Position numbers and translations under genes: made by a program
Shown here: positions 34,823 through 63,402 of the stretch, piece after piece
Layout: every line of letters starts with the position of its first letter
Position numbering within the stretch: position 1 is the first letter of the stretch
The notes under the pieces: generated by a model
Databases searched by the model: none
What the model saw: the letters and a program-made list of their open reading frames with translations, nothing else
What the model was told of the DNA's origin: nothing
From: Streptomyces capitiformicae
Lineage (GTDB): Bacteria; Actinomycetota; Actinomycetes; Streptomycetales; Streptomycetaceae
Direction of reading: 5' to 3'
DNA length: 64,000 nt
Assembly: GCF_002214185.1 (NCBI RefSeq)
Contig: NZ_CP022161.1
Location: 6,889,486-6,953,485, forward strand

Positions 34823-36230
34823 GCGTTTCGCCCGCGGCGGCCGCCGCCGGCTCGTACTTGCTCGGGATCGTCGACACGTCGAACTTCTCGTTGCGGACCG
34901 GATCGACGAGGTACGGGAAGCGGGCGACGGTGGCCCGGATTTCCTTCTGGCGGGTGCCGGGATCGCCCCACAGCACGACGACCTCGGTGCCCTCGTCGGC
35001 GACGGCGGTCTCCACCGTGGCGAGCGAGAGCATCTCGCCGGAGTGCACGCTGAAGCACCGGCCGGACGACGTGCCGACGTCCCGCCCGCCCACCAGGACG
35101 CGGTCCGCCCACAGGCTCTGCTGGTGCTCGCGGTCGCCGACCTCGTACATGAAGTGATTGGGCATGTTCATGTACGGGTGCTCCGCGCCCTTGCGGAACT
35201 GCGACTGGTACACATCGGCGATGTCCTCGGGGTTCCAGACCAGGGTGACCATGGTCCTGGCCGCCGCCGCGGCCTCCCGCGCCAGCGCCTCGCACCCGAT
35301 GAAGTCGTGGTCGAACTTGACCATGTGCCCCCAGCCCAGCTCGTACGGGGTCCGGTACCGGCGGTCCAGGTCCTTACCCGCGCTGCCGTGCAGCCGCAGG
35401 TCCTTGCCGATCGGCGGGAAGCCGAGGCCTGCGAAGAACGCCTGGAGGTTCTCGTCCTCGCCCCAGGGCAGCGGGAAGTGGTAGTACATCTGCCCGAAGC
35501 CGCCTTGGGTGTGCTGGCACATGTAGGCCTGCACGCCCATCTTGCGGATCCCGTACTCCTCGCCGGCCGCCATCAGCGCCTCGTACACGGGGATGGCGTG
35601 TTCCACCGGACCGTGCACCTCGTAGGCGAGGGTGCCCGACATGCCAATCCGGATGACCCGGACCTCCGCGTCGGCGATCGTCGCCAGGCGGTGCCGGAGG
35701 AACTTGATGTCGTGCAGGTTCTCCTCGGCGGCGCCCTCCAGCACCTCCAGCGAACGCGGGCCGCTGAGCTGGAAGAGGAAGACCCGGCCCGTGAGGTCCT
35801 CGGCGGTCACATCGAGGTCGGGGCGCTGCGCCAGCCGGTAGCCCAGGTAGGGCGAGAGCCAGTACGTGACGAAGTCGTCCTCGGCCAGCCGCAGCAGCAT
35901 CCCGTGCGCGGCGACCCGGCCCTGCTCGTCCGTCATGATCGCGTGCCGGGACGCGCCCACCCGGAAGGTGGCGAGGCTGTTGACGCACACACTGGACAGG
36001 AAGGCCAGCGCGTCCGGTCCGGTCAGCCGCAGCGTCGGCGAGGGGTTCAGGTGGCCGTGCAGCGACACGGTCGTCGTCGCGGCCAGCACCTCGTCCCGCC
36101 AGCCCGTGTACTCCCACGCCTCCGCGTCGCCGCCGAAGCACCAGGCCGCCGTCTCGTGGAACTGGACGATGGGGTCGTACGGCACGAACGGGGTGTGGGG
36201 AAAGGTCTTGCTCTGCGGCATCTCGGCCAT
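34806..36230 (-). CDS. Folate-dependent O-demethylase, LigM/DesA-like (GcvT fold), copy 1
   Basis: A 474-residue member of the aminomethyltransferase (GcvT) fold. Known relatives LigM and DesA move the methyl of vanillate, syringate or 3-O-methylgallate onto tetrahydrofolate. Visible are the N-terminal folate-binding half (TLRLTGPDALAFLSSVCVNSL), HGMLLRLAEDDF, the IGMSGTLAYEVHGP segment, MVKFDHDFIGCEALARE, and the C-terminal domain GEMLSLATVETAVADEGTEVVVLWGDPG. It is the most divergent of three copies here. The ATG at 36230 (GAGAGG upstream) is preferred to 36275. It diverges from folD, with a GntR-type motif between them. Confidence 0.82.
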   Translation of the reverse strand: MAEMPQSKTFPHTPFVPYDPIVQFHETAAWCFGGDAEAWEYTGWRDEVLAATTTVSLHGHLNPSPTLRLTGPDALAFLSSVCVNSLATFRVGASRHAIMTDEQGRVAAHGMLLRLAEDDFVTYWLSPYLGYRLAQRPDLDVTAEDLTGRVFLFQLSGPRSLEVLEGAAEENLHDIKFLRHRLATIADAEVRVIRIGMSGTLAYEVHGPVEHAIPVYEALMAAGEEYGIRKMGVQAYMCQHTQGGFGQMYYHFPLPWGEDENLQAFFAGLGFPPIGKDLRLHGSAGKDLDRRYRTPYELGWGHMVKFDHDFIGCEALAREAAAAARTMVTLVWNPEDIADVYQSQFRKGAEHPYMNMPNHFMYEVGDREHQQSLWADRVLVGGRDVGTSSGRCFSVHSGEMLSLATVETAVADEGTEVVVLWGDPGTRQKEIRATVARFPYLVDPVRNEKFDVSTIPSKYEPAAAAAGETRTANA

Positions 36231-36354
36231 GTCGAACCTCTCTGGCTCGGTGCGGTACGACGCTGTGGTCGGCACCGGTGAACGGCTCCCTCTCCCTGGA
36301 TGAAGTCCTGCGGAGAAGTCCTGTGGATGCTGCGCCCGGCCCAGGACCGCCAGA

Positions 36355-36381
36355 TAGGGCAGAACTACGCGTTAGCGGTAC
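36355..36381. repeat. 27-bp direct repeat, copy 2 (upstream of the demethylase)
   Basis: Begins TAGGGCAGAACTACGCGTT and matches 34796-34822 at 24 of 27 positions. On the - strand it reads as a gene end (AGTANA*), as does copy 1, so it may be a leftover 3' tip of a duplicated demethylase gene. Confidence 0.6.
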
Positions 36382-36520: not shown

Positions 36521-37378
36521 ATGACTGCAGGAAGACTCGACGGCACCGCCCTGGCCCGCCAGGTGAGCGAAGAGGTCGCGAAGGGAGTGGCGGCGTTCCG
36601 GGCCGCGGGCGGTACGACGCCCGGACTCGCCACCGTGCTCGTGGGCGACGACCCGGCATCGGAGGTGTACGTCCGCAACAAGCGTCGGCTGTGCGTCGAG
36701 GCGGGCATGCTCGACCTGCACCGCCGTCTTCCCGCCACTGCCGAGCAGGCCGAAGTCACAGCGCTCATCGACGAGTTGGCGGCGGACCCGGCCGTCTCCG
36801 GCATCCTGCTCCAGCTGCCGCTCCCGGCGCACCTGGACGCACCGACACTGGTCGAGCGCATCCCGGCGGCCAAGGACGTCGACGGCCTGACCACGACGAG
36901 CGCCGGCCTTCTGGCCCAGGGGCGCCCAGGCCTGCGCCCCTGCACCCCGGCCGGCGTGATGCGGATCCTCGACGCGTACGACGTTCCCCTGGAGGGAACC
37001 CACGCCGTGGTCGTGGGCCGGTCGGTGCTCGTGGGGCAGCCCATGGCACAGCTGCTCCAGCAGCGGAACGCCACGGTCACCGTGTGTCACTCGCGCACCC
37101 GCGATCTTGTGGGGATGTGCCGGTCGGCCGACGTCCTCGTGGTGGCCGCCGGCAAGCCGGGGATCATCGGCGCCGATGCGGTCGCCCCGGGCACCACCGT
37201 GATCGACGTCGGCATCCACCGCGCCCCCGACGGTCTGATCGGCGACGTGGACGCACCGGCCGTCGCCGAGGTCGCTGGCCTGCTGACCCCCGTGCCCGGC
37301 GGAGTCGGCCCGATGACCATCGCCATGCTGCTGTCCAACACCCTGGCGGCCGCGACCGCCGCACACCCGAGGGACTGA
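36521..37378 (+). CDS. folD: Methylenetetrahydrofolate dehydrogenase/cyclohydrolase
   Basis: A 285-residue bifunctional enzyme converting 5,10-methylene-THF to 10-formyl-THF with NADP reduction. Hallmarks are ATVLVGDDPASEVYVRNKRR (Tyr and Lys of the active site), LQLPLPAHLD, KDVDGLTT, PCTPAGVMRIL, VVGRSVLVGQPMAQLL and PGGVGPMTIAMLLSNT. ATG 36521 has GAAGGA upstream. It is unlikely to be the housekeeping copy: it heads an operon with a ring-cleavage dioxygenase and maleylacetate reductase and diverges from a folate-dependent demethylase, so it should process demethylation-derived C1 units. Confidence 0.95.
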   Translation: MTAGRLDGTALARQVSEEVAKGVAAFRAAGGTTPGLATVLVGDDPASEVYVRNKRRLCVEAGMLDLHRRLPATAEQAEVTALIDELAADPAVSGILLQLPLPAHLDAPTLVERIPAAKDVDGLTTTSAGLLAQGRPGLRPCTPAGVMRILDAYDVPLEGTHAVVVGRSVLVGQPMAQLLQQRNATVTVCHSRTRDLVGMCRSADVLVVAAGKPGIIGADAVAPGTTVIDVGIHRAPDGLIGDVDAPAVAEVAGLLTPVPGGVGPMTIAMLLSNTLAAATAAHPRD

Positions 37379-37382
37379 CATC

Positions 37383-38276
37383 GTGCCCCCAGCGCCCCGT
37401 AGCCGCCCGCTGTTCTCCGCAGAGCGATCCGCCGAGGTCGTGACCCAGGCCTTCAGCGACACGCCGGATGCACGACTGCGTACGGTGATCACCGCACTGG
37501 TCGAGCACCTGCATGCCTTCGCGAAGGAAGTCGACCTCACTCAGGCGGAACTGGACACCGCGATCGACTTCCTGACCCGGACCGGCCACGCCTGCACCGA
37601 CGTACGGCAGGAGTTCCAGCTGCTCTCCGACGTCCTCGGCATGTCGATGCTCGTCGACTCCCTCGACCACGCAGGCCCCGGCCCGACGACGACCGAGTCG
37701 ACGGTGCTCGGCCCGTTCCACATGGTCGACTCCCCGCCGCGCGCCCTCGGCGACTCCATCTCCCTCGCCGAGGGCGGCGAACCCACCCTGGTCACCGGCC
37801 AGGTCCTCGGCCCCGACGGCCGCCCGCTCGGAGGGGCGCTCATCGACGTGTGGCAGGCGGATGAGAAGGGGTTCTACGACGTCCAGCGTCCCGGCGAGGT
37901 CCCGGAGCGCAATCTGCGCGGCCTGTTCACCTGCGACGAGCAGGGCAGGTTCCACTTCCGGACGATCCTGCCCGCGGCTTACCCGATCCCCGACGACGGC
38001 CCGGTCGGGCAGCTGCTCGAAGCCACTGCCCGGCATCCCTACCGGCCGGCGCACATCCACTTCATCGTCGGCGCCGAGGGCCACCAGCCGCTGACCACCC
38101 ATGTGTTCGTCGCGGGCTCCGACTACCTGGACTCCGACGCGGTGTTCGGGGTCAAAGAGAGTCTGGTGCTGGACTTCGAGGAGGTGAGCGGAGGCGAGTT
38201 GGCCGCCGCGCACGACCTCCCCGTGCCGTTCCGGCACGCGCATGTCGAGATCGCCCTGCGACCCGAGGAGGGATGA
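37383..38276 (+). CDS. Intradiol ring-cleavage dioxygenase (hydroxyquinol 1,2-dioxygenase type)
   Basis: A 297-residue non-haem Fe(III) enzyme cleaving a catechol-type ring between the hydroxyls. Iron ligands are Tyr165 (KGFYDVQ), Tyr200 (PAAYPIP), His224 and His226 (YRPAHIHFIV). The N-terminal linker domain GHACTDVRQEFQLLSDVLGMSMLVDSL matches hydroxyquinol and chlorocatechol dioxygenases. The maleylacetate reductase that follows supports hydroxyquinol (1,2,4-trihydroxybenzene) as substrate. GTG start at 37383 after GAGGG; 4 bases from folD. Confidence 0.9.
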   Translation: MPPAPRSRPLFSAERSAEVVTQAFSDTPDARLRTVITALVEHLHAFAKEVDLTQAELDTAIDFLTRTGHACTDVRQEFQLLSDVLGMSMLVDSLDHAGPGPTTTESTVLGPFHMVDSPPRALGDSISLAEGGEPTLVTGQVLGPDGRPLGGALIDVWQADEKGFYDVQRPGEVPERNLRGLFTCDEQGRFHFRTILPAAYPIPDDGPVGQLLEATARHPYRPAHIHFIVGAEGHQPLTTHVFVAGSDYLDSDAVFGVKESLVLDFEEVSGGELAAAHDLPVPFRHAHVEIALRPEEG

Positions 38277-39343
38277 GGGTGCCTGACCTCCCGAAGGACG
38301 GGTTCGTCCACGAGCAGCGAGCGGGCCGGGTGGTCTTCCGTGACGGCGCGCTCGACGAGCTCGCGGCCGAGACGGACCGGCTCGGACTGACCAGGGTGGC
38401 GGCAATCGCCGGCCCCCGCTATGCCGGGCGCACGGCGGACGTTCTCAGTTCCCGGCTGGTGACCGCCGTCGAGGACGCGCGTATGCACGTTCCCGTGGAG
38501 CAGGCCGAGGCGGTGCGGGCCCAGTGTGCCGACGCGGAGGCCGACGGACTCGTGGCCGTGGGCGGCGGCTCGGCGGTCGGCCTGGCCAAGGCCGTCGCGC
38601 TCACCCTGGGCATCCCGATCGTGGCCGTTCCGACGACGTACTCGGGCTCTGAGATGACCCGGGTGTGGGGCATATCCCGGGACGGCGTCAAGCGCACCGG
38701 CCGCGACCCCGTGGTCGCGCCGCGCACCGTCCTGTACGACCCGGCCCTGTTCGCCACGTTCCCGGCCGTACTGGCGGTCCCCTCGGCCTTCAATGCCCTC
38801 GCGCACGCGGTGGAAGCGCTCTACGCCCCGGACCGCACGCCCATGACCGACCTGGTTGCGGGGGAGGCGGTACGGCGGATCATCGGTGCCCTGCCACGAC
38901 TCGCGACCGATCCAGAGGCCCGGTCGGAGGCCCTTCGCGGAGCGTGGCTGTCCGGGGCCGCCCTGGACTCGACCACGATGTCCCTGCACCACAAGCTGTG
39001 TCATGTACTCGGTGGGCTCGGCCTGTCGCACGCCTCGGCGCACACAGTCGTGCTGCCGCACGTGCTCGCCTACAACGCCGGCGCCGCCCCGCAGGCCGCG
39101 GACGTGGTCGCAACGGCCCTGGGCAGGCCGGGCGCGGAGGCAGGTCTCGCGCTGCACGAGCTCGCCGTGACCATGGCGGCACCGACCCGGCTGCGCGATC
39201 TCGGACTGCGCCACGACGCCCTCGACGACGTGGCCCGCGGCGTGCTGGCCTCCCCCTACGCCAATCCGGCCCCCGTGGAGGAGACGGCGGTGCGCGCCCT
39301 TCTCGAACGCGCGTGGCGCGGTTCCGTTCCCGGCAGTCTGTGA
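38273..39343 (+). CDS. Maleylacetate reductase (iron-containing ADH family)
   Basis: A 356-residue NAD(P)H enzyme that reduces maleylacetate to 3-oxoadipate. The cofactor loop is VAVGGGSAVGLAKAVALTLGIPIVAVPTTYSGSEMT, and the family His residues appear in FNALAHAVEALYAP and SHASAHTVVLPHVLAYN. Its ATG overlaps the dioxygenase stop (ATGA at 38273-38276). Together with the dioxygenase it forms the classic hydroxyquinol lower pathway. Confidence 0.92.
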   Translation: MRVPDLPKDGFVHEQRAGRVVFRDGALDELAAETDRLGLTRVAAIAGPRYAGRTADVLSSRLVTAVEDARMHVPVEQAEAVRAQCADAEADGLVAVGGGSAVGLAKAVALTLGIPIVAVPTTYSGSEMTRVWGISRDGVKRTGRDPVVAPRTVLYDPALFATFPAVLAVPSAFNALAHAVEALYAPDRTPMTDLVAGEAVRRIIGALPRLATDPEARSEALRGAWLSGAALDSTTMSLHHKLCHVLGGLGLSHASAHTVVLPHVLAYNAGAAPQAADVVATALGRPGAEAGLALHELAVTMAAPTRLRDLGLRHDALDDVARGVLASPYANPAPVEETAVRALLERAWRGSVPGSL

Positions 39344-39469: not shown

Positions 39470-40558
39470 TCAGCCGGAGACGCCATCCCACGGGTCGTCC
39501 GACACCTGAACCATGAGCTTGCCCTGGTTGCCGCCGGTGAGGAGCAGCTGCAGCGCGGACGCCACCTGCTCCATGCCGGCCACGACGTGCGGACGGTGCC
39601 GGACGGCCCCGGTCATGAACAGCCGACCCAGCTCACCGAAGATCGCCTCGTAGCGGTCGACGTGGTCCGGCGGGATGAAGCCCTCCATCCGGGCACTGGC
39701 CAGCACGAGGCGGAACGTGTTCTTCAGCCCGTAGTGCTGGGACGGATCGGGAAGGTCGTACTGCGACATCTCCCCGCACAGCAGCACGCGCGCCCGCTTC
39801 GCGAGGTGGAGTAGGACGGTGTCGAGCATCTCGCCCCCGACGTTGTCGAAGTACACGTCGACACCCTCGGGGCACAGTCAGCCCAGTGCCTCGTCCACAC
39901 TCTCCGAGCGGTAGTCGATGGCACCGTCGAGCCCGAGGTCGTCGAGCAGGAACCGGCACTTCTCCTCGCCGCCGGCGATCCCGATCACCCGGCAGCCGTA
40001 GGCCTGGGCGATCTGTGCCGCGATCGTCCCCACCGCCCCGGCGGCAGCCGAGACCAGGACCGTCTCGCCCGCCTCCGGCTTGGCGATCTCACCCATCCCG
40101 ATCATCGCCACCAGGCCGATGTGGGAGAAGACGGTCAGGTGGGCACTCAGCGGCACCCCGGGCTGCCGCTCGATCCTGGTCGGCGGAATCGGCCCTCCGG
40201 CACCGGTCGTGAGGACCGGATGCGTCGACCAGTCCGCCAGCGCGGAGACGACGTCGCCGGGCGCGAAGTCCGGTGCGCGCGTCTCCTCGACGACACCCAG
40301 GACGACGCCCTTCATCACGTCGCCGACGTCGAGGGGCACGACGTACGCCGCGTCACCCAGGCGCAACTGCGTGAGGTACGAGGGATCGAGCGAGAGGTAC
40401 ACGGTGCCCACCCGGATCTCGCCCTCTTCCAGGGGGCGCTGCGGCCGCTCCTCCAGGCGCAGGCAGTCCGGCGTGTAGTGGCCCACCGAGGGTTTCTGGA
40501 TGACCCAAGCCTGTTCGCGGGGCAGCTGTTCGGCGCTGCTCGCCGATGCGGTGGCCAT
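39470..40558 (-). pseudogene. MDR NADP-dependent oxidoreductase split by an in-frame TGA
   Basis: A paralogue of the 28.7 kb reductase. The N-terminal part (ATG 40558 to 39878) ends at a TGA at 39878-39880 in DEALG*LCPEGVDVYFDNVGG, and the same frame continues without a shift to 39470 (MSQYDLPDPSQHYGLKNTF...GNQGKLMVQV). The intact paralogue has AIAEKCPQGVDLFFDNVGG there, so one point mutation (for example CGA to TGA) explains it. It is either a recent pseudogene, a sequencing error or a read-through site. It is the distal gene of the 48.3-39.5 kb operon. Confidence 0.8.
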
Positions 40559-40559: not shown

Positions 40560-41042
40560 TCAGTCCATCATCTCTGCGGCGGCGCGGAAGACGCGCAGCT
40601 CGTCGCCGAACCAGCCGCTGACCCACTCAGTGGTCCACCGCCGCTTTTGGAAACGCCAGCCCTTCCCGGTCTTCACCAGGACGTCGGTGTGCCAGCCCTG
40701 GACCTGGAAGGCCCGGACCTCGCCCTGGTCGTTGCGACGTGCCCACGGGTTGATCGTCTTGGCCTTGACGTGCGAGATCGTCCGCTCGTCGTCCTCGAAG
40801 TCGATGACCTGGTTGACCGAGATGTGGAAGACGTGGTCGAAGCCTTCGCCGGTCAGGAACCCACCGTCCCTGCCCTGCTCCCAGGTGAAGGGGGCGGGCA
40901 GACCGGCGTCGGTGTAGTCGATCACGCAGTCCGGCAGGAACACCTCGTCGAGCAGGTCGGCCCGCTTGGCGTCCGCGGCGTGCACGTAGCGGCCGTAGAG
41001 CTCGATGATCTCGAGACGGTCGGCCAGTTCCTCGAGTTTCAT
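40560..41042 (-). CDS. SnoaL/NTF2-like protein (nuclear transport factor 2 fold)
   Basis: A 160-residue SnoaL_4-type protein: MKLEELADRLEIIELYGRYVHAADAKRADLLDEVFLPDCVIDYTDAG, then FHISVNQVIDFEDDERTISHVKAKTINPW and GWHTDVLVKTGKGWRFQKRRW. Relatives include scytalone dehydratase-like enzymes, hydratases and ring-hydroxylating oxygenase beta subunits; no alpha subunit is present, so a small dehydratase or isomerase is more likely. The ATG overlaps the upstream stop (ATGA at 41039-41042). Confidence 0.82.
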   Translation of the reverse strand: MKLEELADRLEIIELYGRYVHAADAKRADLLDEVFLPDCVIDYTDAGLPAPFTWEQGRDGGFLTGEGFDHVFHISVNQVIDFEDDERTISHVKAKTINPWARRNDQGEVRAFQVQGWHTDVLVKTGKGWRFQKRRWTTEWVSGWFGDELRVFRAAAEMMD

Positions 41043-41935
41043 GACGCCACCGCCTCGGGTTGCTCGGCGCCGACCTCCGCCATGACCGTCTCGGCGTAGC
41101 GGACCAGCCCGTCGCGCACCTCTTCCTGGGAGGAGCCGTTCGGAACCACGAACACGCGCGAGACGCCGAGTTCCTCGTATCCGCGTACGACGTCGGCGGT
41201 GAGGTTCTGGGTGGCGCCGGCGCTGATCTCGATCTCGTCGTAGTCGCGTCCGAGCTTGTCGCACTCGGCCCGCATCGTCTCCAGCAGGGGCGCCATGGCC
41301 TCCGGTCCGGGGACGGCGGGGAAGAACCCGTTGCCGTAGCGGGCGGCGCGCTTGGCGGCCAGTTCGGTGTGGCCGCCCACGTGGATCGGGACCCCGCCCT
41401 TCTGCACCGGCTTCGGGGAGGAGTAGATCGGCGGCCAGTCGAAGAACCGGCCGTGGAACTCGCTGGGTGACTCGCTCCACAGCGAGCGCATCGCCGCCAC
41501 GGACTCCCGCGCCCGTGCCGCGCGGTTGTCGAAGTCACGGTCGAGGGCCTGGTACTCCTCACGCAGCCACCCGACCCCGACGCCGAGCATCAGGCGTCCC
41601 TGGGAGAGCGTGTCGAGTGTGCCGCAGATCTTGGCGAGTTGGATCGGGTGGTGCTGCGGAAGGATGCAGACCCCGGTGGCCAGCCGCAGCCGCGTGGTGA
41701 CCGCTGCCGCGTACGCGAGCGGGGTGAAGGGGTCGGGGAGAGGAGCCTCCGACGGTGCCTCGATCCGGCCCGTCGGGCTGTAGGGGTAGACGGAGGTGTA
41801 GTTCTCCGGGATGGCTGGATGTTCCACGGACCAGATCGACTCGTAGCCGAGTTCCTCCGCGGTCCGTGCGAGGCTTGCCAGCCCGCCCGGCTCCATCGAC
41901 GCTCCGATGGTCGCGAATCCGATGGCGAATTTCAT
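41039..41935 (-). CDS. LLM-class F420- or flavin-dependent oxidoreductase
   Basis: A 298-residue luciferase-like TIM barrel: KFAIGFATIGASMEPGGLASLARTAEELGYESIWSVEHPAIP, TTRLRLATGVCILPQHHPIQLAKICGTLDTLSQGRLMLGVGVGWLREEY, and VPIHVGGHTELAAKRAARYGNGFFP. The SDTLSxGR-like segment and length resemble the actinobacterial F420-dependent group. Strong GGAGG ribosome site before the ATG at 41935. It could reduce an enone or oxidise an alcohol within the operon. Confidence 0.87.
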   Translation of the reverse strand: MKFAIGFATIGASMEPGGLASLARTAEELGYESIWSVEHPAIPENYTSVYPYSPTGRIEAPSEAPLPDPFTPLAYAAAVTTRLRLATGVCILPQHHPIQLAKICGTLDTLSQGRLMLGVGVGWLREEYQALDRDFDNRAARARESVAAMRSLWSESPSEFHGRFFDWPPIYSSPKPVQKGGVPIHVGGHTELAAKRAARYGNGFFPAVPGPEAMAPLLETMRAECDKLGRDYDEIEISAGATQNLTADVVRGYEELGVSRVFVVPNGSSQEEVRDGLVRYAETVMAEVGAEQPEAVAS

Positions 41936-41973
41936 TCGTCCTCCTGCCGTGCTGGGTTCCGAAGGGGGATCGG

Positions 41974-45865: not shown

Positions 45866-45921
45866 GACGGTCCTCCTTGACTGTCGATGAGGGTGGTTCG
45901 GGCGCGGTCGCGCGCGGTGAT

Positions 45922-53045: not shown

Positions 53046-53070
53046 GCGCCGAGGATACGTGAGGTCCACA

Positions 53071-53083
53071 GCTGTCCGACAGC
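53071..53083. promoter_or_regulatory. GntR-type operator, gntR promoter
   Basis: GCTGTCCGACAGC, perfect 6-bp arms around one central C. It lies 26 bases upstream of the gntR ATG and resembles the TGTCAGACA/TGTCTGACA core of the other sites. Confidence 0.6.
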
Positions 53084-53106
53084 CGCTAGGTGACATCTTT
53101 CGCGCT

Positions 53107-53187: not shown

Positions 53188-53583
53188 GTGACTGCTCACA
53201 TGGATACGACCGATCGGCTGGCCGCGGGTGACGCCATGCGGCGTCAAGTGCTCGGCGACGAGCACGTCAACCGCTCGCGCGCCAACGCGAGCCCCTTCAG
53301 CCGGCCGCTCCAGGACCTCGTCACCGAGTACTGCTGGGGAGCGGTCTGGACTCGTCCCGGCCTCGAACCGGCCACCCGGAGCCTGCTCAACATCGGGATG
53401 CTGACGGCGCTGGGCAAGCCCGACGAACTGCGGCTGCACGTACGCGGAGCGCTCAACAACGGCTGCGCCGTGGAGCAGATCCAGGAAGTGCTGCTCCAGG
53501 CGGCCATCTACTGCGGGGTCCCGGCCGCGCTGGAGGCCTCGCGCGCCGCGCAGCAGGTCATCGCGGAGCTGGGAGATGAGTGA
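53188..53583 (+). CDS. Carboxymuconolactone decarboxylase-like protein
   Basis: A 131-residue CMD/AhpD-fold protein close in length and sequence to 4-carboxymuconolactone decarboxylase: RPLQDLVTEYCWGAVWTRPGLEPATRSLLNIGMLTALGKPDELRLHVRGALNNGCAVEQIQEVLLQAAIYCGVPAAL. The Cys-x-x-Cys of AhpD peroxidases is absent; a single Cys follows the NNG segment and another is in IYCGVP. In the protocatechuate branch it would decarboxylate gamma-carboxymuconolactone, but no protocatechuate dioxygenase is in the window. GTG start with AAGG upstream. Confidence 0.88.
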   Translation: MTAHMDTTDRLAAGDAMRRQVLGDEHVNRSRANASPFSRPLQDLVTEYCWGAVWTRPGLEPATRSLLNIGMLTALGKPDELRLHVRGALNNGCAVEQIQEVLLQAAIYCGVPAALEASRAAQQVIAELGDE

Positions 53584-56378: not shown

Positions 56379-57236
56379 TCAGTCCGGAAAGACCACGGTC
56401 GTACGTCCGTTGAGGAGCACTCGGCTCTCCAGATGATGGCGGACAGCCCTGGCCAGCACGCGCCGCTCGATGTCCCGCCCCTTGCGGACCAGTTGCTCGG
56501 GCGTGTCCCGGTGGGTGACGGGCTCGACGTCCTGGGCGATGATCGGGCCCTCATCTAGGTCGCCGGTGACGTAGTGCGCTGTCGCCCCGATCAGCTTCAC
56601 CCCGCGCTCGTACGCCTGGTGGTAGGGCTTGGCGCCCTTGAAGCCCGGCAGGAACGAGTGGTGGATGTTGATGCAGCGGCCTGCCAGGCTGGCGGACAGC
56701 TCGTCCGACAGGATCTGCATGTAGCGGGCGAGGACCACGAGGTCGACCTCATACTCGTCGACGATCGCGAGCAGTTTGGCTTCCTGCTCCGGCTTGTTCT
56801 CCTTGGTCACCGGCAGGTGATGGAACGGGACGTCGGACAGGTCGATGTGCTGGTAGACCTCGCGGGGATGGTTGGACACCACGCCGACCACATCCATCGG
56901 CAACTCGCCGATACGCCACCGGTAGAGCAGGTCCGCGAGGCAGTGATCGAGCTTCGAGGCCATGATGAGGACCCGCATACGGGACCGGTCCCCGGTCACC
57001 GACCAAGTGGCTGCCAGCTGGGTGAGACCGTCGGAGACGTTCTCCCGGACGGTGGTTTCGGTCACTCCGGCCGGGACGGTGAAGGCGAGTCGGCAGAAGA
57101 ACCGGCCGGTGAGCTGATCGTTGAAGTGGCTGGCCTCCTGGATGTTGCAGCCGATCGCGGCGAGGCCCGTGGTGACCCGGCTGACGATGCCGGGCCGGTC
57201 GTCGCAGGCGAACTTTAGAGTGAAAGCGGTGGACAT
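56379..57236 (-). CDS. purU: Formyltetrahydrofolate deformylase, copy 2
   Basis: A 285-residue paralogue of the 45 kb enzyme with an N-terminal ACT domain ([34 protein letters not shown]) and catalytic segments [73 protein letters not shown] precedes the ATG. It directly follows demethylase 3 by 24 bases, so demethylation and formate release are transcribed together. It is the last gene of the operon that starts at 63.4 kb. Confidence 0.94.
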
Positions 57237-57260: not shown

Positions 57261-58544
57261 TCACGCTTGATGCAGGTCGGCGCGGCGCCGGTCGGGCTTG
57301 TAGGGCGCGGCGGCGACGGTCGCCCGGATCGCCTTCTGCGGTCCGCCGGGCTCTCCCCAGTGGACGGTGACCTGGGTGCCCGGCTCGCTGTGCGCGACGT
57401 CGACAGTGCATAGCGAGAGCATTTGCCGGTAGTAGTAGCTGTAGCCGCGGGAGGTGGCGATCCCAACGAGGTCGTCGCCGGCGGTGACCTTGTCCGCCCA
57501 CATGAAGCCGCGCTGGTCACGGGGCATGTCCATGAACGGGTAGTGCTCGCCCGGTCGGAACATCGACGCGAAGACGTCCGCCACGTCGTTGCCGTTCCAC
57601 ACCAGGGTCCGCATGACGCGCCGGGGCGCGGCCTTCTCCGCCTCCAGCGCCTCGCGGCCCAGGAAGTCGTGGTCGAAGTTGATGTTGCGGGCCCAGCCCA
57701 GCTCCACCGGGCTGCGGTAGTAGTCGCTGATCTCGGCGCCGTCGTAGGAACCGGCGATGTAGGCCGGCTGCGCGAAGGACGGCATGGAGGAGGTGAAGAA
57801 CTCGCGGTAGCTCTTCATGTCCTCGTCGAAGATGGCAGGGATGTAGTCGGTGGCGATGGTCGGGAAGCACGCCTCCAGGTGGTTGATCATGGTGGCGCGG
57901 GCACCGAGCTTGCGGATCCCGAACTCCTGGCCGGCCTCGAGGATGGCGTCGTAGACGTCCTGCTTGGCGGCCATGGGGCCCTGGAGCTCGAAGCCGATTT
58001 CCCCGGCCATGCCTTGCCGCAGCGCGTACAACTCGTGGTCGGCGATCTTCAGGGAGTTGACCCACATGAACTTGGTCTCGCGCAGGTTCGATGAGCCCGA
58101 GACCTTTTCGAGGAGCTTCACCGAATTGGGGCCGGAGACCTGGAGGATGAACCAGTCGTCCCGCTCCACCTTGACGTCGTAGTCGGTCGTGCCCAGGTAG
58201 TTGCGGACCCAGAAGCCACCGCGGCCGTGCAGCATGAACTCCTCGTCGCCGAAGCGGGTGAGGATGCCCTCGTGGATGACCTTGCCGTCCTGGTTGGTGT
58301 GGATGGCGTGCTTGGACTGGCCGAGGGCGAAGTTCGCGAGGGTGTTGACGGTGATGTCGCCGAGCATGGTGAGCGCGTCGGGGCCGGTGATCCGGTGCTG
58401 CCACAGGAACGACCAGTCCCCGATGTAGCAGGCGTCCTTCCAGGACATGCTCTCGTCGAGCCAGTCGGTGTACTCGGGCTGTCCGAACCGGCTCCAGGCG
58501 TAGCCCTCCGGTGGAGTGCGCATGCTGCTGACGGTGTATTTCAT
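57261..58544 (-). CDS. Folate-dependent O-demethylase, LigM/DesA-like (GcvT fold), copy 3
   Basis: A 427-residue protein of the same size and layout as copy 2, with MRTPPEGYAWSRFGQPEYTDWLDESMSWKDACYIGDWSFLWQHRITGPDAL, LRQGMAGEIGFELQGP, INHLEACFPTIATDYIPAIF, NINFDHDFLGREAL and GYSYYYRQMLSLCTVDV. The differences from copy 2 are spread throughout, so the two are distinct enzymes rather than a recent duplication, perhaps acting at different methoxy positions. It lies between a LigW-like decarboxylase and purU in one operon. Confidence 0.86.
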   Translation of the reverse strand: MKYTVSSMRTPPEGYAWSRFGQPEYTDWLDESMSWKDACYIGDWSFLWQHRITGPDALTMLGDITVNTLANFALGQSKHAIHTNQDGKVIHEGILTRFGDEEFMLHGRGGFWVRNYLGTTDYDVKVERDDWFILQVSGPNSVKLLEKVSGSSNLRETKFMWVNSLKIADHELYALRQGMAGEIGFELQGPMAAKQDVYDAILEAGQEFGIRKLGARATMINHLEACFPTIATDYIPAIFDEDMKSYREFFTSSMPSFAQPAYIAGSYDGAEISDYYRSPVELGWARNINFDHDFLGREALEAEKAAPRRVMRTLVWNGNDVADVFASMFRPGEHYPFMDMPRDQRGFMWADKVTAGDDLVGIATSRGYSYYYRQMLSLCTVDVAHSEPGTQVTVHWGEPGGPQKAIRATVAAAPYKPDRRRADLHQA

Positions 58545-58585: not shown

Positions 58586-59617
58586 TCAGCGGAGCTGGAA
58601 GAGATTCTCGGCGGTGGTCTGGAAGAAGGCCTTCAGCCCGGCGGTGCCGAGCGGGAGGTCGTCCTGGGCGGTGACCTCGTCCGGGGCGTACTGGTACGGG
58701 TAGTCCATGGCGTACAGCACCCGGCCGGCTCCGAGGACTTCGCGGCAGAACATGATCGCGGGGGCCCAGGGCATGCCGCTGGTGGTGACCCAGACGTTCT
58801 CCCGCAGGTAGTCGCTGACCTTGCGCTGGAGGGGCTTGATGACGGGGTAGCGCTTGGCGCGGACGGTGGCCTCGTGCATGTAGTCCAGGCGGTAGAGCCA
58901 GAACGGAAGGGCTTCGCCGAGGTGTCCGACGACGATCTTGAGGCGTGGGAAGCGGTCGAAGACGCCGGAAGTGATGATGCGCAGCAGGTGCATGCCGGTC
59001 TCGACGGCGAAGCCGTAGATCGCGCCGTCCAGACCCGCTTCCAGCAGTGGCCCGATCATCGCGGGGGAAGGCGTGTTGGGGTGGAGGTAGATCGGGGTGT
59101 CGTGGGCCTCGGCCGCCTCGAAGATGGGCCAGAACTTGGGGTCGTCCAAGTACTCGCCTCGGGTGTGCGAGTTGATGATGACGCCCTTCAGCCCCAGGTC
59201 ACGATGGCCGCGTTCGATCTCGCGGGCGGCGTGCTCCGGGTCCTGTGGGGCGACGGCGGTGAGGCCGCTGAAGCGGTCGGGGTGGCTGCGGATCGCCTCG
59301 GCGAGCCGGTTGTTGGCGAGTTCGGCGATGGCGACCGCCTCGGACCGCGGCAGGATCTGCGTGCCGGGGGAGGTGAGCGAGATGACCTGGCGGTCGACGC
59401 CCGCGGCGTCCATGTCGGCCAGCCGTCGCTCGCCGAGGTCGGGGAGGCGTTCGAGGATGAAGTCGGTGCGTGCGCTTCGGTGGTTGACGTAGAAGCCCAT
59501 CAGGCTGTCGAATCCCGGGTCGCCGTGATCGTTCCGCTTGATCATGTCCCGCCACAGATCGAGGAGTTCCGGCGGAGCGAACGCCTCCTCGGTGGCGATG
59601 CGTGCGTAGTCAGGCAT
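58586..59617 (-). CDS. Amidohydrolase-family decarboxylase (LigW/gamma-resorcylate decarboxylase-like)
   Basis: A 343-residue ACMSD-type TIM barrel. The N-terminal IATEEAF (residues 7-13, replacing the usual HxH) is typical of 5-carboxyvanillate and gamma-resorcylate decarboxylases. Further metal and active-site segments are IYLHPNTPSP, VVGHLGEALPFWLYRLDYM and YAMDYPYQY. It should remove a ring carboxyl ortho to a hydroxyl. Its ATG lies 8 bases inside the aldehyde dehydrogenase gene end. Downstream demethylase and purU suggest a vanillate- or resorcylate-like substrate. Confidence 0.88.
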   Translation of the reverse strand: MPDYARIATEEAFAPPELLDLWRDMIKRNDHGDPGFDSLMGFYVNHRSARTDFILERLPDLGERRLADMDAAGVDRQVISLTSPGTQILPRSEAVAIAELANNRLAEAIRSHPDRFSGLTAVAPQDPEHAAREIERGHRDLGLKGVIINSHTRGEYLDDPKFWPIFEAAEAHDTPIYLHPNTPSPAMIGPLLEAGLDGAIYGFAVETGMHLLRIITSGVFDRFPRLKIVVGHLGEALPFWLYRLDYMHEATVRAKRYPVIKPLQRKVSDYLRENVWVTTSGMPWAPAIMFCREVLGAGRVLYAMDYPYQYAPDEVTAQDDLPLGTAGLKAFFQTTAENLFQLR

Positions 59618-61133
59618 GGTCGTCGGCTCCTTCCGCGGCGCGCAGCAGGGTGTTCCAGTGGTCGGTGCCGGGCAGCAGCGACGGGTCGTCGTAGGTGACC
59701 ACGGCCTGCTGTTCCATGCACTCCAGGACGGAGGTCAGGCCGTGGGTGCGGCCGATGCCGCTGTGCTTGATGCCGCCGAACGGCACGGACATCGGCGAGG
59801 CGCCTACGCGGTGGACGTTGACGAAGGCGGTCCCGGCCTCCAGGCGGCGGGCCAGTGCCCAGGCGCGGTCGGTGTCGGCGGACCAGACGGACGCGGCCAG
59901 GCCGTAGTCGGTCGAGTTGGCCAGCCGGACGGCTTCCTCCTCGTCGTCGAAGGGCAGGATCGGCACGATGGGCCCGAACTGCTCCTCGGTGACCAGCGGC
60001 GCGTCGGGAGCGATGTCCGTGACGACGCTCGGGAGGATGAAGTAGCCCTCGTTCCAGCCGAAGGGGTCCAACTGCTCGCCGACGACGGTGACCTTGGCGC
60101 CGGCGGCCGCGGTGGCGTCGCGCAGGGCGAGCACGCGGTGGTACTGGGCACGGGTGGTGACCGGCCCGATGGTGGCCCGGGGGTCGCTGCCCTCGCCCAC
60201 CCGGATCCGCGAGACCAACTCCGTGAACCCGTCGGTGAATTCGGCGAGGCGGCTGCGGTGGACGTAGATCCGCTTAACGTTGTAGCAGATCTGCCCGCTG
60301 AGGCCGAACACGCCGGCGACCAGCTCGCGGAGCATCGTCTCGTCGATGACCGCGTCATGCAGAACCAACGCCGGGTCGTTTCCGCCGAGTTCGAGCGTGA
60401 CGTTCTTGATGGTCGGCGCGGCGGACGCCAGCACTCGGGACCCGGTCGCGACCGAGCCGGTGAACATCAGCCGCCGCACGGCGGGATGTTCGGACAGCGC
60501 GGCACCCGCGTCCGGGCCGAGCCCGGGTACGCGGCCGACGACTCCGGACGGGAGGGCGTCGGCGAGTACCGCGACGGCCCGGCTCAGGGCCAGCGGAGCC
60601 TCCTCCGGCGGCTTGACGATCACCGGGTTGCCCGCCATCAGGGCCGGGCCGATCGACATGAACGCCAGGAACACCGGGGTGTTCCACGGCGCGATGACCC
60701 CGACCGGGCCCATCGGCACATGCCGGGTCACCGCGCGGCCCGGCCAAGGGAGTTCGGCCGGTTCCTCGGCGGCGGCGATGTCCTCGGCCAGCCCCGCGAA
60801 GTACCGCAGCAGCCGGGGCGCGCCGCCCGCGTCGCCGTACGACTCGTGCAGCACCTTGCCCACCTCGCGGGTGAGCAGCGCGGCCAGCTCGGGAACCTCG
60901 GCCTCCAGCGCGTCGGCGGCCTTCACCAGGTACGCGGCACGCTCGGCCGGGCTCAGCGCGGCCCAGCCGGGGAAGGCGGACGCCGCCGCGCGGGCCGCGA
61001 GGTCGATCTCCCCGGCCCCGCCCAGGGCGAACTCGCCGACGACCTCGCTGATCCGCGCCGGATTGAGCACCGGCGCGAACCCGGTGGTGACCTCCTCGCC
61101 GCCGACCAGGACGGATGCGCGGGTCGCGCTCAT
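59610..61133 (-). CDS. Aldehyde dehydrogenase (aryl-aldehyde type)
   Basis: A 507-residue ALDH with VIAPWNTPVFL, catalytic Glu248 (LELGGNDP) and nucleophile Cys283 (GQICYNVKRIY). The LELGGNDP form and compact N-terminus are seen in benzaldehyde/vanillin-type dehydrogenases as well as other ALDHs. It should convert an aryl aldehyde released by the upstream oxygenase to the acid. Its ATG overlaps the hydrolase stop (ATGA at 61130-61133). Confidence 0.9.
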   Translation of the reverse strand: MSATRASVLVGGEEVTTGFAPVLNPARISEVVGEFALGGAGEIDLAARAAASAFPGWAALSPAERAAYLVKAADALEAEVPELAALLTREVGKVLHESYGDAGGAPRLLRYFAGLAEDIAAAEEPAELPWPGRAVTRHVPMGPVGVIAPWNTPVFLAFMSIGPALMAGNPVIVKPPEEAPLALSRAVAVLADALPSGVVGRVPGLGPDAGAALSEHPAVRRLMFTGSVATGSRVLASAAPTIKNVTLELGGNDPALVLHDAVIDETMLRELVAGVFGLSGQICYNVKRIYVHRSRLAEFTDGFTELVSRIRVGEGSDPRATIGPVTTRAQYHRVLALRDATAAAGAKVTVVGEQLDPFGWNEGYFILPSVVTDIAPDAPLVTEEQFGPIVPILPFDDEEEAVRLANSTDYGLAASVWSADTDRAWALARRLEAGTAFVNVHRVGASPMSVPFGGIKHSGIGRTHGLTSVLECMEQQAVVTYDDPSLLPGTDHWNTLLRAAEGADDHA

Positions 61134-61990
61134 GCGGTGCTCCTCACGGCGTATTCCTCGATGAACCGCAGCAGCGGCTCGCCGAGCGGGGCGTCGTCGA
61201 CGCCGAGGGCGACGATCTCGGAGATGTGGTTGTGGCCCGTGACGTGCACGAAGGAGGAGACGAAGTCCCGTACCGCCTCGGCCTGGGCATGGAAGTCCGG
61301 GGGGTCGAGCTCGGCCACACAGGCCAGCAGCGGGATGGCGCAGTCACGCAGCCCGGGCAGCGCCTCGCGGGCGGGGAGTTCCGCGGGATCGGAGCCGTAG
61401 TAGGAGCGCAGCAGTTCGTTCTGCCGGAGCTCACGCAGGTCGTAGATGCCCGACAGCAGGCCGGCCGCGGCCACCCGGGGTCGCGTACCGCCGTGGCAGG
61501 CCAGGTATCCGGCCACGTGGGCGGCTCCCGCAGAGTGCCCGACGAGCACGATCCGCTCCGGATCGCCCCCGTGCTCCGCGATGTTCGCCCGCACCCAGGC
61601 CACCGCGTCGGCGACGTCCTGCGCCCCGGCGGGCCATCGGTGCTCCGGGGCGAGCCGGTAGTTCATGGTCACGGCGACGAGCCCGCGGTCCGCCGCCCAG
61701 CGGCCGATATGGCGGTAGAACGGGAAACCGGCGGTGTCCTTGTCCCCGGCGACGAAGCCGCCGCCGGGCGCGAACAGCAGCACCGGCGCGCCGGCCGGCG
61801 GCTCGAACGCCCGATGGACGTCGAGCCGCTGCCTCGGATGAGTGCCGTACGACTCGTCGGTGACGACCACCGGTGCCTCGTAGCCGCGTTCCCGGTGGTC
61901 TCGCGCGAACAATGCCCACATGCCCTGGATCAGCTCCGGGGTCACCTCGGCGGGCGTGCTCCGGATGACCGCCTCATGACGGGTGGTCAC
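61130..61990 (-). CDS. Alpha/beta hydrolase of the hormone-sensitive-lipase/kynurenine-formamidase type
   Basis: A 286-residue esterase: oxyanion hole PGGGFVAGDKDTAGFPFYRHIG (GGG form), nucleophile VGHSAGAAHVAGY (Ser near residue 143), a likely acid in AELDPPDF and His in TGHNHISEIV. It could cleave an aryl ester or formyl ester. It overlaps both neighbours by ATGA junctions, so it is firmly part of the operon. Confidence 0.86.
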   Translation of the reverse strand: MTTRHEAVIRSTPAEVTPELIQGMWALFARDHRERGYEAPVVVTDESYGTHPRQRLDVHRAFEPPAGAPVLLFAPGGGFVAGDKDTAGFPFYRHIGRWAADRGLVAVTMNYRLAPEHRWPAGAQDVADAVAWVRANIAEHGGDPERIVLVGHSAGAAHVAGYLACHGGTRPRVAAAGLLSGIYDLRELRQNELLRSYYGSDPAELPAREALPGLRDCAIPLLACVAELDPPDFHAQAEAVRDFVSSFVHVTGHNHISEIVALGVDDAPLGEPLLRFIEEYAVRSTA

Positions 61991-63402
61991 TTGCCCTCCA
62001 GGTCCTCGTCGGGCACCCAGTTGCCGTGGAAGCCCAGCGGTACGCGCTGCGGGATGTGGATGCGGGCGACCGGGCCGCCCGACAGGTCCTGGGAGTGCAG
62101 GATCAGGACCTCGGCGTTGCCGTTGGCGAGGTCGGAGACGTAGGTCATCAGCCAGCCGTCGTCCTCCGCCGAGTCGGCGGTCCGCGGCACGAAGACGGCC
62201 TCCATGCCGAAGCGGCCGGGTCCGTAGGTGTACGACTCGGAGGTGCCGCGCAGCAGGTCCTGTTTGAGCAGGGCACTGTCGGCGTTTTTGGCGCGCGAGG
62301 AGAAGTAGCCGTAGCGGTGTTCACCCACACCGATGAGCCGCTCGTCCAGGCGGGGCATCTCCTGCGGGGTGTCGTCGAGCCGCCTGACCGTGCAGCGACC
62401 GGTGGCCGGGTCGAGGAAGTAGCGGTCCAGTCGGGACGGTGTGTCTGTGGGACCGGTGGGGTCGGTGTGGAAGAGACGCTCGTTGCTGCACACGTCGACC
62501 GCGACCCGTCCGTCCGGCAGGTCGAAGGCGCCGAGGATGTGGAAGACGGCGGCCGGTTCCGTCTCGCACCACACGACCTGGTCGGCGCTGCCCTCCCGGG
62601 GCAGCAGGGCCCAGGCCGGACGGTGGTCGAAGTCCCACGCGTAGGGGAAGTCGTAGCCCTTCTCCAGCATGCCCGGATGGGCCTGGACGGGGCCGTTGTA
62701 GAAGACGCAGTAGCGCGAGCTGAGCGCCATGTCGTGGATGATCGGACGGCCTTCGAGCGGCACGTCCACCGTCCTGCGGACCCGGCCGGCGATGTCCAGC
62801 ACCACGTACTGGGCGAAGTTCCAGTCCCAGCGGTAGGCCACACCGTGCAGTTCGCCGGTGGTGGCGTCGCGGTGCGGGTGACCGGTCCAGGCGCCGTTCC
62901 ACGTGTTCTCGAAGTTGGAGCGGGCGATCGTCTCCAGCTCGTACGTCAGCTCATAGGGGAGCTGTCCGCCCTCCATGAACGCGAACGTGTGGCCGCCCTG
63001 GGAGAGGACGTTGGTGTTGGCCGTCTGCCGCACCACATAGGCCGGGCCCGGGGCGGGGGCCTCCGGGCCGGGGGTCTTCGGCCAGCCGCGGCTGGCGGTG
63101 ACCTGGTCGTCGCGTACAAAGCGATTGCGGTACCACTCGGCACGACCGTCCCGGAGCCGGACCCCGTGCACCATGCCGTTGCCGGAGAACCAGTTGTACG
63201 TCACCGGGTCCTCGGGGTCGATCGGATTGGGGCCGACCCTCAGCAGGCGGCCGTTCAGCTCGGCCGGGATCGTGCCCGTCACCTTCAGGTCATGAACGGT
63301 GATCTCCTGGTCAACCGGGGCGAACGGCCCCTTCAGGAACTGGTTGCCTGGCTGCTGGGAGCCGGCCCCGGCGGTGGGGCGCTGCGGTTCGGTGCTCGTC
63401 AT
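61987..63402 (-). CDS. Carotenoid-cleavage/lignostilbene dioxygenase family protein
   Basis: A 471-residue seven-bladed propeller Fe(II) oxygenase. The four iron His ligands are visible: His175 (TGHPH), His223 (IIHDMAL), His288 (VFHILGAF) and His459 (FHGNW). The family splits a C=C bond of apocarotenoids, stilbenes or propenylphenols into two carbonyls. In an operon with an ALDH, a LigW-like decarboxylase, a demethylase and purU, cleavage of a lignostilbene or isoeugenol-type compound to a methoxybenzaldehyde is the best guess; sequence alone does not separate it from apocarotenoid oxygenases. First gene of the operon. Confidence 0.9.
   Translation of the reverse strand: MTSTEPQRPTAGAGSQQPGNQFLKGPFAPVDQEITVHDLKVTGTIPAELNGRLLRVGPNPIDPEDPVTYNWFSGNGMVHGVRLRDGRAEWYRNRFVRDDQVTASRGWPKTPGPEAPAPGPAYVVRQTANTNVLSQGGHTFAFMEGGQLPYELTYELETIARSNFENTWNGAWTGHPHRDATTGELHGVAYRWDWNFAQYVVLDIAGRVRRTVDVPLEGRPIIHDMALSSRYCVFYNGPVQAHPGMLEKGYDFPYAWDFDHRPAWALLPREGSADQVVWCETEPAAVFHILGAFDLPDGRVAVDVCSNERLFHTDPTGPTDTPSRLDRYFLDPATGRCTVRRLDDTPQEMPRLDERLIGVGEHRYGYFSSRAKNADSALLKQDLLRGTSESYTYGPGRFGMEAVFVPRTADSAEDDGWLMTYVSDLANGNAEVLILHSQDLSGGPVARIHIPQRVPLGFHGNWVPDEDLEGK

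Follow-up and report, generated by a model that had tools for sequence, protein, structure and literature searches.

The DNA analysed here, called the window, is a stretch of 64,000 nucleotides (contig NZ_CP022161.1, positions 6,889,486 to 6,953,485) that covers 6.889-6.953 Mb of the 10.99-Mb single-contig genome of Streptomyces capitiformicae. It carries three genes for proteins of the GCV_T fold, designated GCVT1, GCVT2 and GCVT3, together with folD, two purU genes, a folP gene and genes for aromatic ring cleavage. Judged from its sequence and gene neighbourhoods, this locus probably degrades a methylenedioxyphenyl plant compound, the likeliest being a furofuran (sesamin-like) lignan, by means of demethylenases of the SesA/BrdA kind coupled to a folate disposal line. 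GCVT1, and probably GCVT2 and GCVT3, would transfer the -OCH2O- carbon to tetrahydrofolate (THF) as 5,10-methylene-THF, leaving a catechol. FolD would convert methylene-THF into 10-formyl-THF, from which PurU would release formate and THF; MetF would not be needed because methylene-THF goes directly to FolD.

All three proteins match PF01571 (116-123 bits), a family that by itself does not tell demethylases and demethylenases apart. Over 426 aa, GCVT1 shares 46.9% identity with SesA of Sinomonas sp. No. 22 (P0254 in our set; UniRef name 'Sesamin methylene transferase'); its identity to LigM is 29%. Excerpts of PMC5547118 describe SesA and BrdA as GcvT-like, THF-dependent enzymes that open methylenedioxy rings; this reaction and its coupling to folate are already known. 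The SesA residues listed there (R81, H82, D95, R100, R179, E189, Y221 and H225) are all present in P0254 at their published numbers. At these eight positions GCVT1 reads RHHRREYH, keeping seven of them with a histidine in place of D95, while GCVT3 keeps five and GCVT2 four; BrdA, as described in the same excerpts, likewise departs from the set. H82, R179, E189 and H225 are common to GCVT1, GCVT2 and GCVT3. LigM has K, Q, D, Y, R, E, Y and T at the same places, and its type of active site (Q82, the tyrosine of the AYPSN motif, no histidine at 225) was found in none of the three proteins, since all of them carry both H82 and H225; the AYPSN tyrosine is kept in GCVT1 only and is replaced by T in GCVT2 and GCVT3. 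The latter two are 71% identical to each other, and their key residues are alike except for R/K100. The demethylenase assignment appears firmest for GCVT1.

Homologues were taken from loci related to the window and from 40 stretches chosen from the match list around Arthrobacter sp. Y81. The first set was reached through the window's own proteins and the second was hand-picked, neither being a random sample. From 145 matches to a GCVT profile, seven (at most 250 bits or at most 350 aa) were removed, leaving 138 open reading frames (ORFs); removal of 26 that were at least 90% identical to a kept row left 112 rows for counting, with loci L071-L080 superseded by their longer versions L083-L092. 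Genes with a histidine at the position of SesA H225 are called His genes below (48 rows) and the others non-His genes (64 rows); L067_9691, with Q at 225, falls in the His branch and was counted as non-His. Two trees were built without DesA or a proven BrdA. The first, inferred quickly by maximum likelihood, included LigM and the host GcvT; the second adds SesA and omits L030_5489 as well as the GcvT of the host.

One side of a branch with maximal support in the Shimodaira-Hasegawa-like approximate likelihood ratio test (SH-aLRT 100) holds all 48 H225 rows, GCVT1-3 included, and one haloarchaeal row without the histidine. LigM lies in a separate group of 58 rows (SH-aLRT 99), and six more non-His rows, all haloarchaeal, lie outside both; the His/non-His label changes twice on the tree. 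When SesA is added it falls inside the His branch (the 49-row side, SH-aLRT 100, unrooted), in a six-row group with GCVT1 (86). It is therefore well supported that GCVT1-3 share a clade with SesA from which LigM is excluded. Two further rows, L027_9860 (457 aa, D95, no Y221) and L125_8669, are 64% identical to each other. The first fits the description of the BrdA of BD7100, for which it is an unproven candidate, and both match BrdA as described in length, D95 and absence of Y221 (excerpts of PMC5547118). The haloarchaeon Halobellus clavatus, to which L067_9691 belongs, has eight matches to the family, one of them with metF close by (L070). GCVT1-like genes (E<=1e-60) occur in 3 of 394 genomes of the class and GCVT3-like genes (E<=1e-90) in 2 of these 394, among which is the host; at the looser E of 1e-40, GCVT1 matches 80 of the 295 genomes around Arthrobacter sp. 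Y81, and 33 of the 39 kept rows from stretches chosen there are non-His.

The sequence-only reading had named GCVT1-3 'LigM/DesA-type' demethylases, a label that is probably wrong. It is explained by the PDB comparison, in which LigM is the top match for all three (139-217 bits); demethylenases are absent from the PDB match lists of these proteins. In the NCBIfam scan of GCVT1 and GCVT3, both fell far short of the LigM cut-off of 580 bits (190 and 265 bits) and the DesA cut-off of 800 bits (203 and 281 bits). A similar label is found elsewhere: BrdA homologues bear the annotation vanillate/3-O-methylgallate O-demethylase in a table of PMC5547118.

A second line of evidence is the form in which the carbon reaches folate, which for a demethylenase is 5,10-methylene-THF. 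The methylene group itself is passed to THF (excerpts of PMC5547118), whereas LigM converts a methoxy group into 5-methyl-THF, which a methylenetetrahydrofolate reductase (MTHFR) homologue oxidises to methylene-THF in Sphingobium SYK-6 (PMC12585457, a meeting abstract). Therefore, metF should accompany the LigM kind only. Among the 112 homologues (below 90% identity), metF lies within 3 kb of 30 of the 64 non-His genes but of only one of the 48 His genes, and this single metF abuts a LigM-type gene (170 bp vs 1425 bp). When each metF is credited to its nearest GCVT gene only, the counts become 23/64 and 0/48. The separation is sharpest among genes with purU or folD within 3 kb: metF is equally close in 17 of 19 non-His (LigM-type) genes and in none of 23 His (SesA-type) genes (first set, 7/9 and 0/21; second set, 10/10 and 0/2). 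Fisher values on the metF counts have to be read as comparing two clades. No metF was found in the window by a whole-genome MTHFR search, by BLAST or with our own profile, and a MetF hidden there can be ruled out on these three routes. The genome has four MTHFR matches, three full (0.59, 0.78 and 6.80 Mb) and one weak (9.72 Mb). As a general rule, whether a GcvT-type catabolic enzyme delivers methylene-THF or methyl-THF may be read from its residue at SesA position 225 and from whether a metF accompanies it. The sequence-only reading had carbon from Ar-OCH3 pass to FolD as a C1-folate. That route skips the oxidation of 5-methyl-THF (PMC12585457), and phylogeny, residues and neighbours, like the lack of metF in the window, point to the SesA/BrdA type instead.

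The fate of the ring is suggested by the neighbouring genes. Enzymes of the HspB/PnpA group hydroxylate a ring carbon while removing its (para) substituent. According to excerpts of PMC11148156, VAO-type enzymes take para-substituted phenols. Once the dioxole ring is opened, the freed para-hydroxyl would make the benzylic carbon open to attack by the VAO-type oxidase; FAD3, the flavoprotein of the HspB/PnpA type, would then hydroxylate the ring carbon bearing the side chain, releasing 1,2,4-trihydroxybenzene (hydroxyquinol). Conversion of this product into 3-oxoadipate would fall to hydroxyquinol 1,2-dioxygenase and maleylacetate reductase. Formation of hydroxyquinol from a 3,4-dihydroxyphenyl ring by these two enzymes fits the ring-cleavage genes present, although the substrate, the order of the reactions and the ipso-hydroxylation are our proposals. 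Genes for the hydroxyquinol pathway, dioxygenase and reductase, appear by sequence to be in place. Iron-type alcohol dehydrogenase (Fe-ADH) relatives adjoin hydroxyquinol dioxygenase in six other loci (L011, L022, L039, L053, L066 and L124), the one in L039 being annotated as maleylacetate reductase. Relatives of both genes occur together within 8 kb of 7/48 His genes and 1/64 others (p 0.02, with the two-clade caveat), and a LigB-type dioxygenase near 1/48 and 7/64, respectively (p 0.13). VAO relatives (near two His genes and one other) and FAD3 relatives (near two and none) show no clear difference. Because FAD3 relatives above 120 bits were found only in Amycolatopsis deserti, Rhodococcus koreensis and Streptomyces stelliscabiei among the loci compared, the ipso-hydroxylase step is not common to all SesA-type loci. 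The earlier observation that the folate genes are interleaved with aromatic catabolism, including ring cleavage, holds, the cleavage genes being those for hydroxyquinol 1,2-dioxygenase and the maleylacetate-reductase-like Fe-ADH.

Part of the same set of partners accompanies related genes in Amycolatopsis, Pseudonocardia, Arthrobacter, Rhodococcus and Sphingobium loci. The best parallel is a 60.8-kb contig of Arthrobacter sp. CAU 1506, which carries a SesA orthologue (68%), two relatives each of hydroxyquinol dioxygenase, maleylacetate reductase and PurU, one of FolD, a GCVT2-like gene (48%), and relatives of the LuxR (27%), metallo-beta-lactamase-fold, 3-hydroxyisobutyrate-dehydrogenase-like, carboxymuconolactone-decarboxylase-like and GntR proteins. 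In A. deserti, a single run of overlapping ORFs, all on one strand, encodes relatives of VAO, PurU1, FAD3, the hydrolase, FolD, hydroxyquinol dioxygenase and maleylacetate reductase (58-81% identity); it adjoins a GCVT2/GntR/P450/GCVT1 block, and five GCVT paralogues are found in about 85 kb. Of the six genes in line with GCVT1 (28742-34733), A. deserti (L009) also keeps five side by side and P. pini (L084) keeps four. Plasmid pLRE138 of Rhodococcus erythropolis R138 bears two GCVT genes, purU, folP, folD, a hydroxyquinol-type dioxygenase and maleylacetate reductase. GCVT1-like genes (43-44%) were also seen on a Psychrobacter plasmid (L038, 7.5 kb) and a Deinococcus plasmid (L045), where their neighbours are genes for a small transporter of the multidrug-resistance type and for a TetR regulator, and no folate gene is annotated close by.

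With respect to folate, FolD, PurU1 and PurU2 match their families, and both PurU proteins and FolP exceed their NCBIfam cut-offs. On its TIGR01496 score, the alternative that FolP is a pterin-binding methyltransferase was rejected. The genome contains six listed FolD-domain matches (four of at least 180 bits), seven formyl-transferase-domain matches and five Pterin_bind matches (three over the whole model); the folD, purU and folP genes of the window are extra copies. The additional FolP may raise the folate supply. FolP lies within 3 kb of 5/48 His genes and 1/64 others, and PabB within 3 kb of 2/48 and 6/64. The gene data support the view that such clusters top up folate as a recurrent pattern in a minority of loci. 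The earlier proposal of a folate-dependent C1 removal from an aromatic compound, coupled to FolD/PurU and to extra folate synthesis, agrees with these data, folP or pabB recurring beside some such enzymes.

A region of Rhodococcus opacus DSM 44186 plasmid pRop44186_a (L042, 12477-35033) contains a LigM-type gene, metF, purU, folD, pabB, a Mur-ligase-family (folC-like) gene, folP, folE, fdhD and a gene for an FdhF-like oxidoreductase; much of a gene set for making folate and oxidising C1 units is thereby gathered in a single region of a catabolic plasmid. A. deserti (L051) has a comparable core of folC-like, pabB, metF, purU and folD genes. The host has a second cluster (L050, 9340000-9355000) in which genes for PurU, FolD, an aldehyde dehydrogenase and an FdhF-like oxidoreductase accompany one for a GCV_T protein of 394 aa; the oxidoreductase is 65% identical to that of R. 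opacus, and the GCV_T protein stands well apart from the demethylase family (22%).

Different observations weigh against the demethylenase reading. The activities of GCVT1-3, like those of the other proteins of the window, are predictions from sequence. GCVT2 and GCVT3 are about as close to SesA (34-35%) as to LigM (35%), and their sub-branch holds no characterised enzyme that could be placed. The association between the histidine and the lack of metF is essentially one split of the tree, the counts representing two clades and not 112 independent events; the genomes were sampled because they carry homologues; and the second set alone, with few His rows, gives an own metF for 13/33 non-His and 0/6 His genes (p 0.08). 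Neither purU nor folD lies within 8 kb of 23/48 His genes and 35/64 others, some of these loci being cut by contig ends. The nearest full MetF gene of the host is about 90 kb upstream of the window, and methyl-THF could be oxidised in trans. FAD3 and VAO relatives are absent from the SesA contig of Arthrobacter sp. CAU 1506, and the LigW gene adjoining GCVT3 suggests vanillate chemistry in that operon.

This last point leads to the alternative that survives best, a mixed system in which GCVT1 and GCVT2 are lignan demethylenases and GCVT3 works on another compound together with LigW, the aldehyde dehydrogenase and the RPE65-type oxygenase, perhaps by O-demethylating a vanillate-type acid. We consider it possible but unlikely; it overlaps with the favoured reading, which is firmest for GCVT1. 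GCVT1 and GCVT2 both belong to the block shared with Amycolatopsis. GCVT3 is encoded in an operon apart, which has a PurU of its own; LigW is matched very strongly; and LigW and RPE65 relatives above 120 bits were found only in S. stelliscabiei among the loci compared. However, GCVT3 has the histidines of the demethylenase clade and is close to GCVT2 in identity and key residues, and A. deserti has a GCVT3-like gene (65%) but lacks the LigW/RPE65 operon.

More doubtful still is that all three proteins are methoxyaromatic O-demethylases whose 5-methyl-THF is oxidised by a MetF encoded elsewhere before FolD and PurU act. They share the fold of LigM and 29-35% identity with it, the genome has three full MetF genes, LigW, aldehyde dehydrogenase and lignostilbene-type oxygenase genes lie beside GCVT3, and LigM/DesA-like proteins have been reported in other (thermophilic) Actinobacteria (excerpts of PMC9296663). 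The position outside the LigM clade, the scores of GCVT1 and GCVT3 below the LigM and DesA cut-offs, the T of GCVT2 and GCVT3 at the AYPSN tyrosine and the H of all three at the T of LigM argue against it, as does a window without metF when 17 of the 19 LigM-type genes near purU or folD have one. A route from vanillate through methoxyhydroquinone to hydroxyquinol with LigM-like demethylation was dropped on the residues, the tree and the metF counts. Finally, a role in glycine, sarcosine, dimethylglycine, trimethylamine N-oxide (TMAO) or dimethylsulfoniopropionate metabolism deserves hardly any credence, since, although the GCV_T fold is the same and further GCV_T genes occur in the genome (long ORFs at 9.73 and 9.78 Mb hold two of them), GCVT1 and GCVT3 score 35-110 bits against NCBIfam cut-offs of 236-1164 (GcvT, sarcosine, TMAO demethylase, DmdA), the corresponding PDB matches reach at most 70 bits vs 139-217 for LigM, and the neighbours are aromatic-degradation genes. 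Phylogeny, one of the checks proposed by the sequence-only reading, puts the proteins in the SesA clade instead of with LigM.

Coordinates of the genes discussed, in nucleotides of the window
Feature	Position	Strand	Evidence
Run in line with GCVT1	28742..34733	-	Pfam
Alcohol dehydrogenase	28742-29749	-	Pfam
Short-chain dehydrogenase (SDR)	29792-30538	-	Pfam
P450	30578-31774	-	Pfam
Beta-lactamase-fold esterase	31771-32922	-	Pfam
VanB-like reductase	32953-33936	-	Pfam
SDR	33894-34733	-	Pfam
GCVT1, predicted SesA-like THF-dependent methylene transferase; start maybe ATG at 36230	34806..36275	-	GCV_T; SesA identity
FolD, methylene-THF dehydrogenase/cyclohydrolase; ORF open from 36278, family matches from about residue 82	36521..37378	+	PF00763 and PF02882, NCBIfam
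Hydroxyquinol 1,2-dioxygenase	37383..38276	+	PDB 8r2x (6-chlorohydroxyquinol-1,2-dioxygenase) 287 bits, best; catechol 1,2-dioxygenases at most 137 bits
Maleylacetate reductase, Fe-ADH type; named from its place beside the dioxygenase	38273..39343	+	PF00465/PF25137
Zinc-type oxidoreductase, two ORFs, probably decayed; end of FolP-VAO run	39470..40558	-	
SnoaL_4-like protein (start approximate)	40560..41040	-	
Luciferase-like monooxygenase (start approximate)	41039..41970	-	
SDR (start approximate)	41974..42732	-	
Alpha/beta hydrolase	42747..43703	-	PF00561; also in the A. deserti run, 58%
FAD3, FAD monooxygenase, HspB/PnpA group	43700..44908	-	PDB 7da9 HspB 319 bits, 6ain PnpA 294; next 105
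PurU1, 10-formyl-THF deformylase; true start maybe about 45865	44930..45925	-	TIGR00655 394 bits vs cut-off 286
VAO/eugenol-oxidase-type 4-phenol oxidase; ORF open to 47553	45922..47439	-	PDB 8s7n 361 bits, eugenol oxidase 5fxd 349
FolP, dihydropteroate synthase; overlaps likely VAO start	47436..48440	-	TIGR01496 269 bits vs cut-off 162.6 (47550-48440 scanned)
LuxR-family regulator	48434..50773	+	GerE, AAA_16
GCVT2, predicted SesA/BrdA-clade methylene transferase	50979..52271	-	Residue signature KHEKRETH; tree
GntR/FCD regulator	52371..53096	-	
Carboxymuconolactone-decarboxylase-like protein	53188..53583	+	
3-Hydroxyisobutyrate-dehydrogenase-like protein	53576..54505	+	
Metallo-beta-lactamase-fold hydrolase	54423..55277	+	
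PurU2, 10-formyl-THF deformylase, 24 bp after GCVT3	56379..57236	-	TIGR00655 328 bits vs cut-off 286
GCVT3, predicted SesA/BrdA-clade methylene transferase	57261..58544	-	71% to GCVT2; signature KHERRETH; tree
LigW-like 5-carboxyvanillate-type decarboxylase	58586..59617	-	PDB 4inf 430 bits over 340 aa
Aldehyde dehydrogenase	59610..61133	-	PF00171 449 bits
Alpha/beta hydrolase, esterase-like	61130..61990	-	PF07859
Carotenoid-cleavage/lignostilbene-dioxygenase-type oxygenase (RPE65-type)	61987..63402	-	PF03055 331 bits; NF052295 477, below cut-off 675

The genes are arranged in several runs. On the minus strand, GCVT1 is followed by the SDR, VanB-like reductase, esterase, P450, SDR and alcohol dehydrogenase genes; a run at 40.6-48.4 kb reads FolP-VAO-PurU1-FAD3-hydrolase-SDR-luciferase-like-SnoaL; GCVT2 and the GntR gene form a pair (51.0-53.1 kb); and a run at 56.4-63.4 kb reads RPE65-hydrolase-aldehyde dehydrogenase-LigW-GCVT3-PurU2. 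The plus strand carries FolD-hydroxyquinol dioxygenase-maleylacetate reductase (36.5-39.3 kb), the LuxR-family regulator and the three genes at 53188-55277. The gene set recognised by the sequence-only reading, three intact GCV_T genes with folD, two purU and an extra folP, is indeed present, but its first GCVT gene lies just left of the range given for the system. From RPE65 to FolP, the proteins are 93-100% identical to those of S. stelliscabiei DSM 41803 (L015). The GCVT2 gene, intact in the window, is represented there by two overlapping ORFs (L015 11591-13387). A DDE transposase ORF (55312-55941) lies between the metallo-beta-lactamase-fold gene and PurU2, and is also found in S. stelliscabiei, in two pieces; it is possibly a trace of how the GCVT3 operon joined the locus. 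At 7576-24270 the window has P450, ferredoxin-reductase-like, CoA-transferase, thiolase-like, enoyl-CoA hydratase, aldehyde dehydrogenase and FAD_binding_2 genes, which could serve the degradation of an aliphatic side chain.

Compared with known systems, the locus shares with SesA the THF-dependent GcvT fold, the clade and the active-site histidines (excerpts of PMC5547118), and with the contig of the Arthrobacter SesA orthologue its hydroxyquinol dioxygenase, maleylacetate reductase, PurU and FolD genes. It differs in that GCVT1 is only 47% identical, with H for D95, and GCVT2 and GCVT3 about 34%, and in having three paralogues, an added folP, the VAO gene and an HspB-like flavoprotein. GCVT2 and GCVT3 (427-430 aa) resemble the BrdA of GBD-1 (432 aa) in length, and they keep H82, R179, E189 and H225 (and R100 in GCVT3) and lack R81, as described for BrdA in excerpts of PMC5547118; BrdA, compared by this description only, acts on an alkaloid, berberine. 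The LigM/DesA and MetF system of SYK-6, for which a table of PMC12997858 places the locus tag of metF beside ligM, has in common the fold, the THF dependence and the link to C1-folate enzymes, but differs in the Q82/T225 active site of LigM and in its 5-methyl-THF product and MetF partner (PMC12585457). A published precedent for a catabolic element with its own folate C1 genes is the chloromethane plasmid pCMU01 of Methylobacterium, with folC2, folD, metF2 and purU, folC2 being a precedent for folate supply; according to excerpts of PMC3621897 it uses corrinoid methyltransferases and MetF2, has no aromatic substrate, and does not duplicate folP or pabB.

The route proposed for pinoresinol in Pseudomonas sp. 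SG-MS2 has a VAO-family enzyme act first and a putative ipso-hydroxylase second, the same order as suggested here; it starts on a free guaiacyl phenol and is cytochrome-coupled, and the passages concerned name no demethylenase (PMC12997858). Literature searches on THF-dependent demethylases or LigW with Streptomyces gave no such locus by title or abstract (the closest being PMC9296663, seen in excerpts), one on methoxyhydroquinone gave a fungal pathway (excerpts of PMC8336404), and one on demethylenation listed nothing on bacterial genes; no confirmation was found of a dmt-metF-purU cluster for dicamba. In the open-access literature, covered mostly by titles and abstracts, no description was found of this locus, of a SesA-type enzyme followed by a hydroxyquinol route that includes an ipso-hydroxylase, or of the H225/metF rule.

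The locus might even encode a whole aerobic route for methylenedioxy lignans, in which several SesA/BrdA-type transferases strip both dioxole rings and benzylic oxidation plus ipso-hydroxylation cut the catechol rings off the aliphatic core directly to hydroxyquinol, with its own folate provision; we regard this as tentative, the balance tilting slightly against it. It is a guess that the GCVT3-LigW-RPE65 operon extends the route to benzofuran neolignans with a methylenedioxy ring and a 5-substituted guaiacyl ring.

For S. capitiformicae, a substrate class that was probably mis-set, the methoxyarenes, is replaced by a testable one, methylenedioxyphenyl compounds such as sesamin. For the family, many of whose members are named 'vanillate/3-O-methylgallate O-demethylase' or 'glycine cleavage system aminomethyltransferase T' in databases, a rule combining sequence and neighbours would separate methyl-delivering from methylene-delivering folate enzymes. 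These data also suggest that clusters using THF as a stoichiometric acceptor may meet the demand by turnover, through purU and folD, and some of them also by supply, through folP, pabB, folC and folE.

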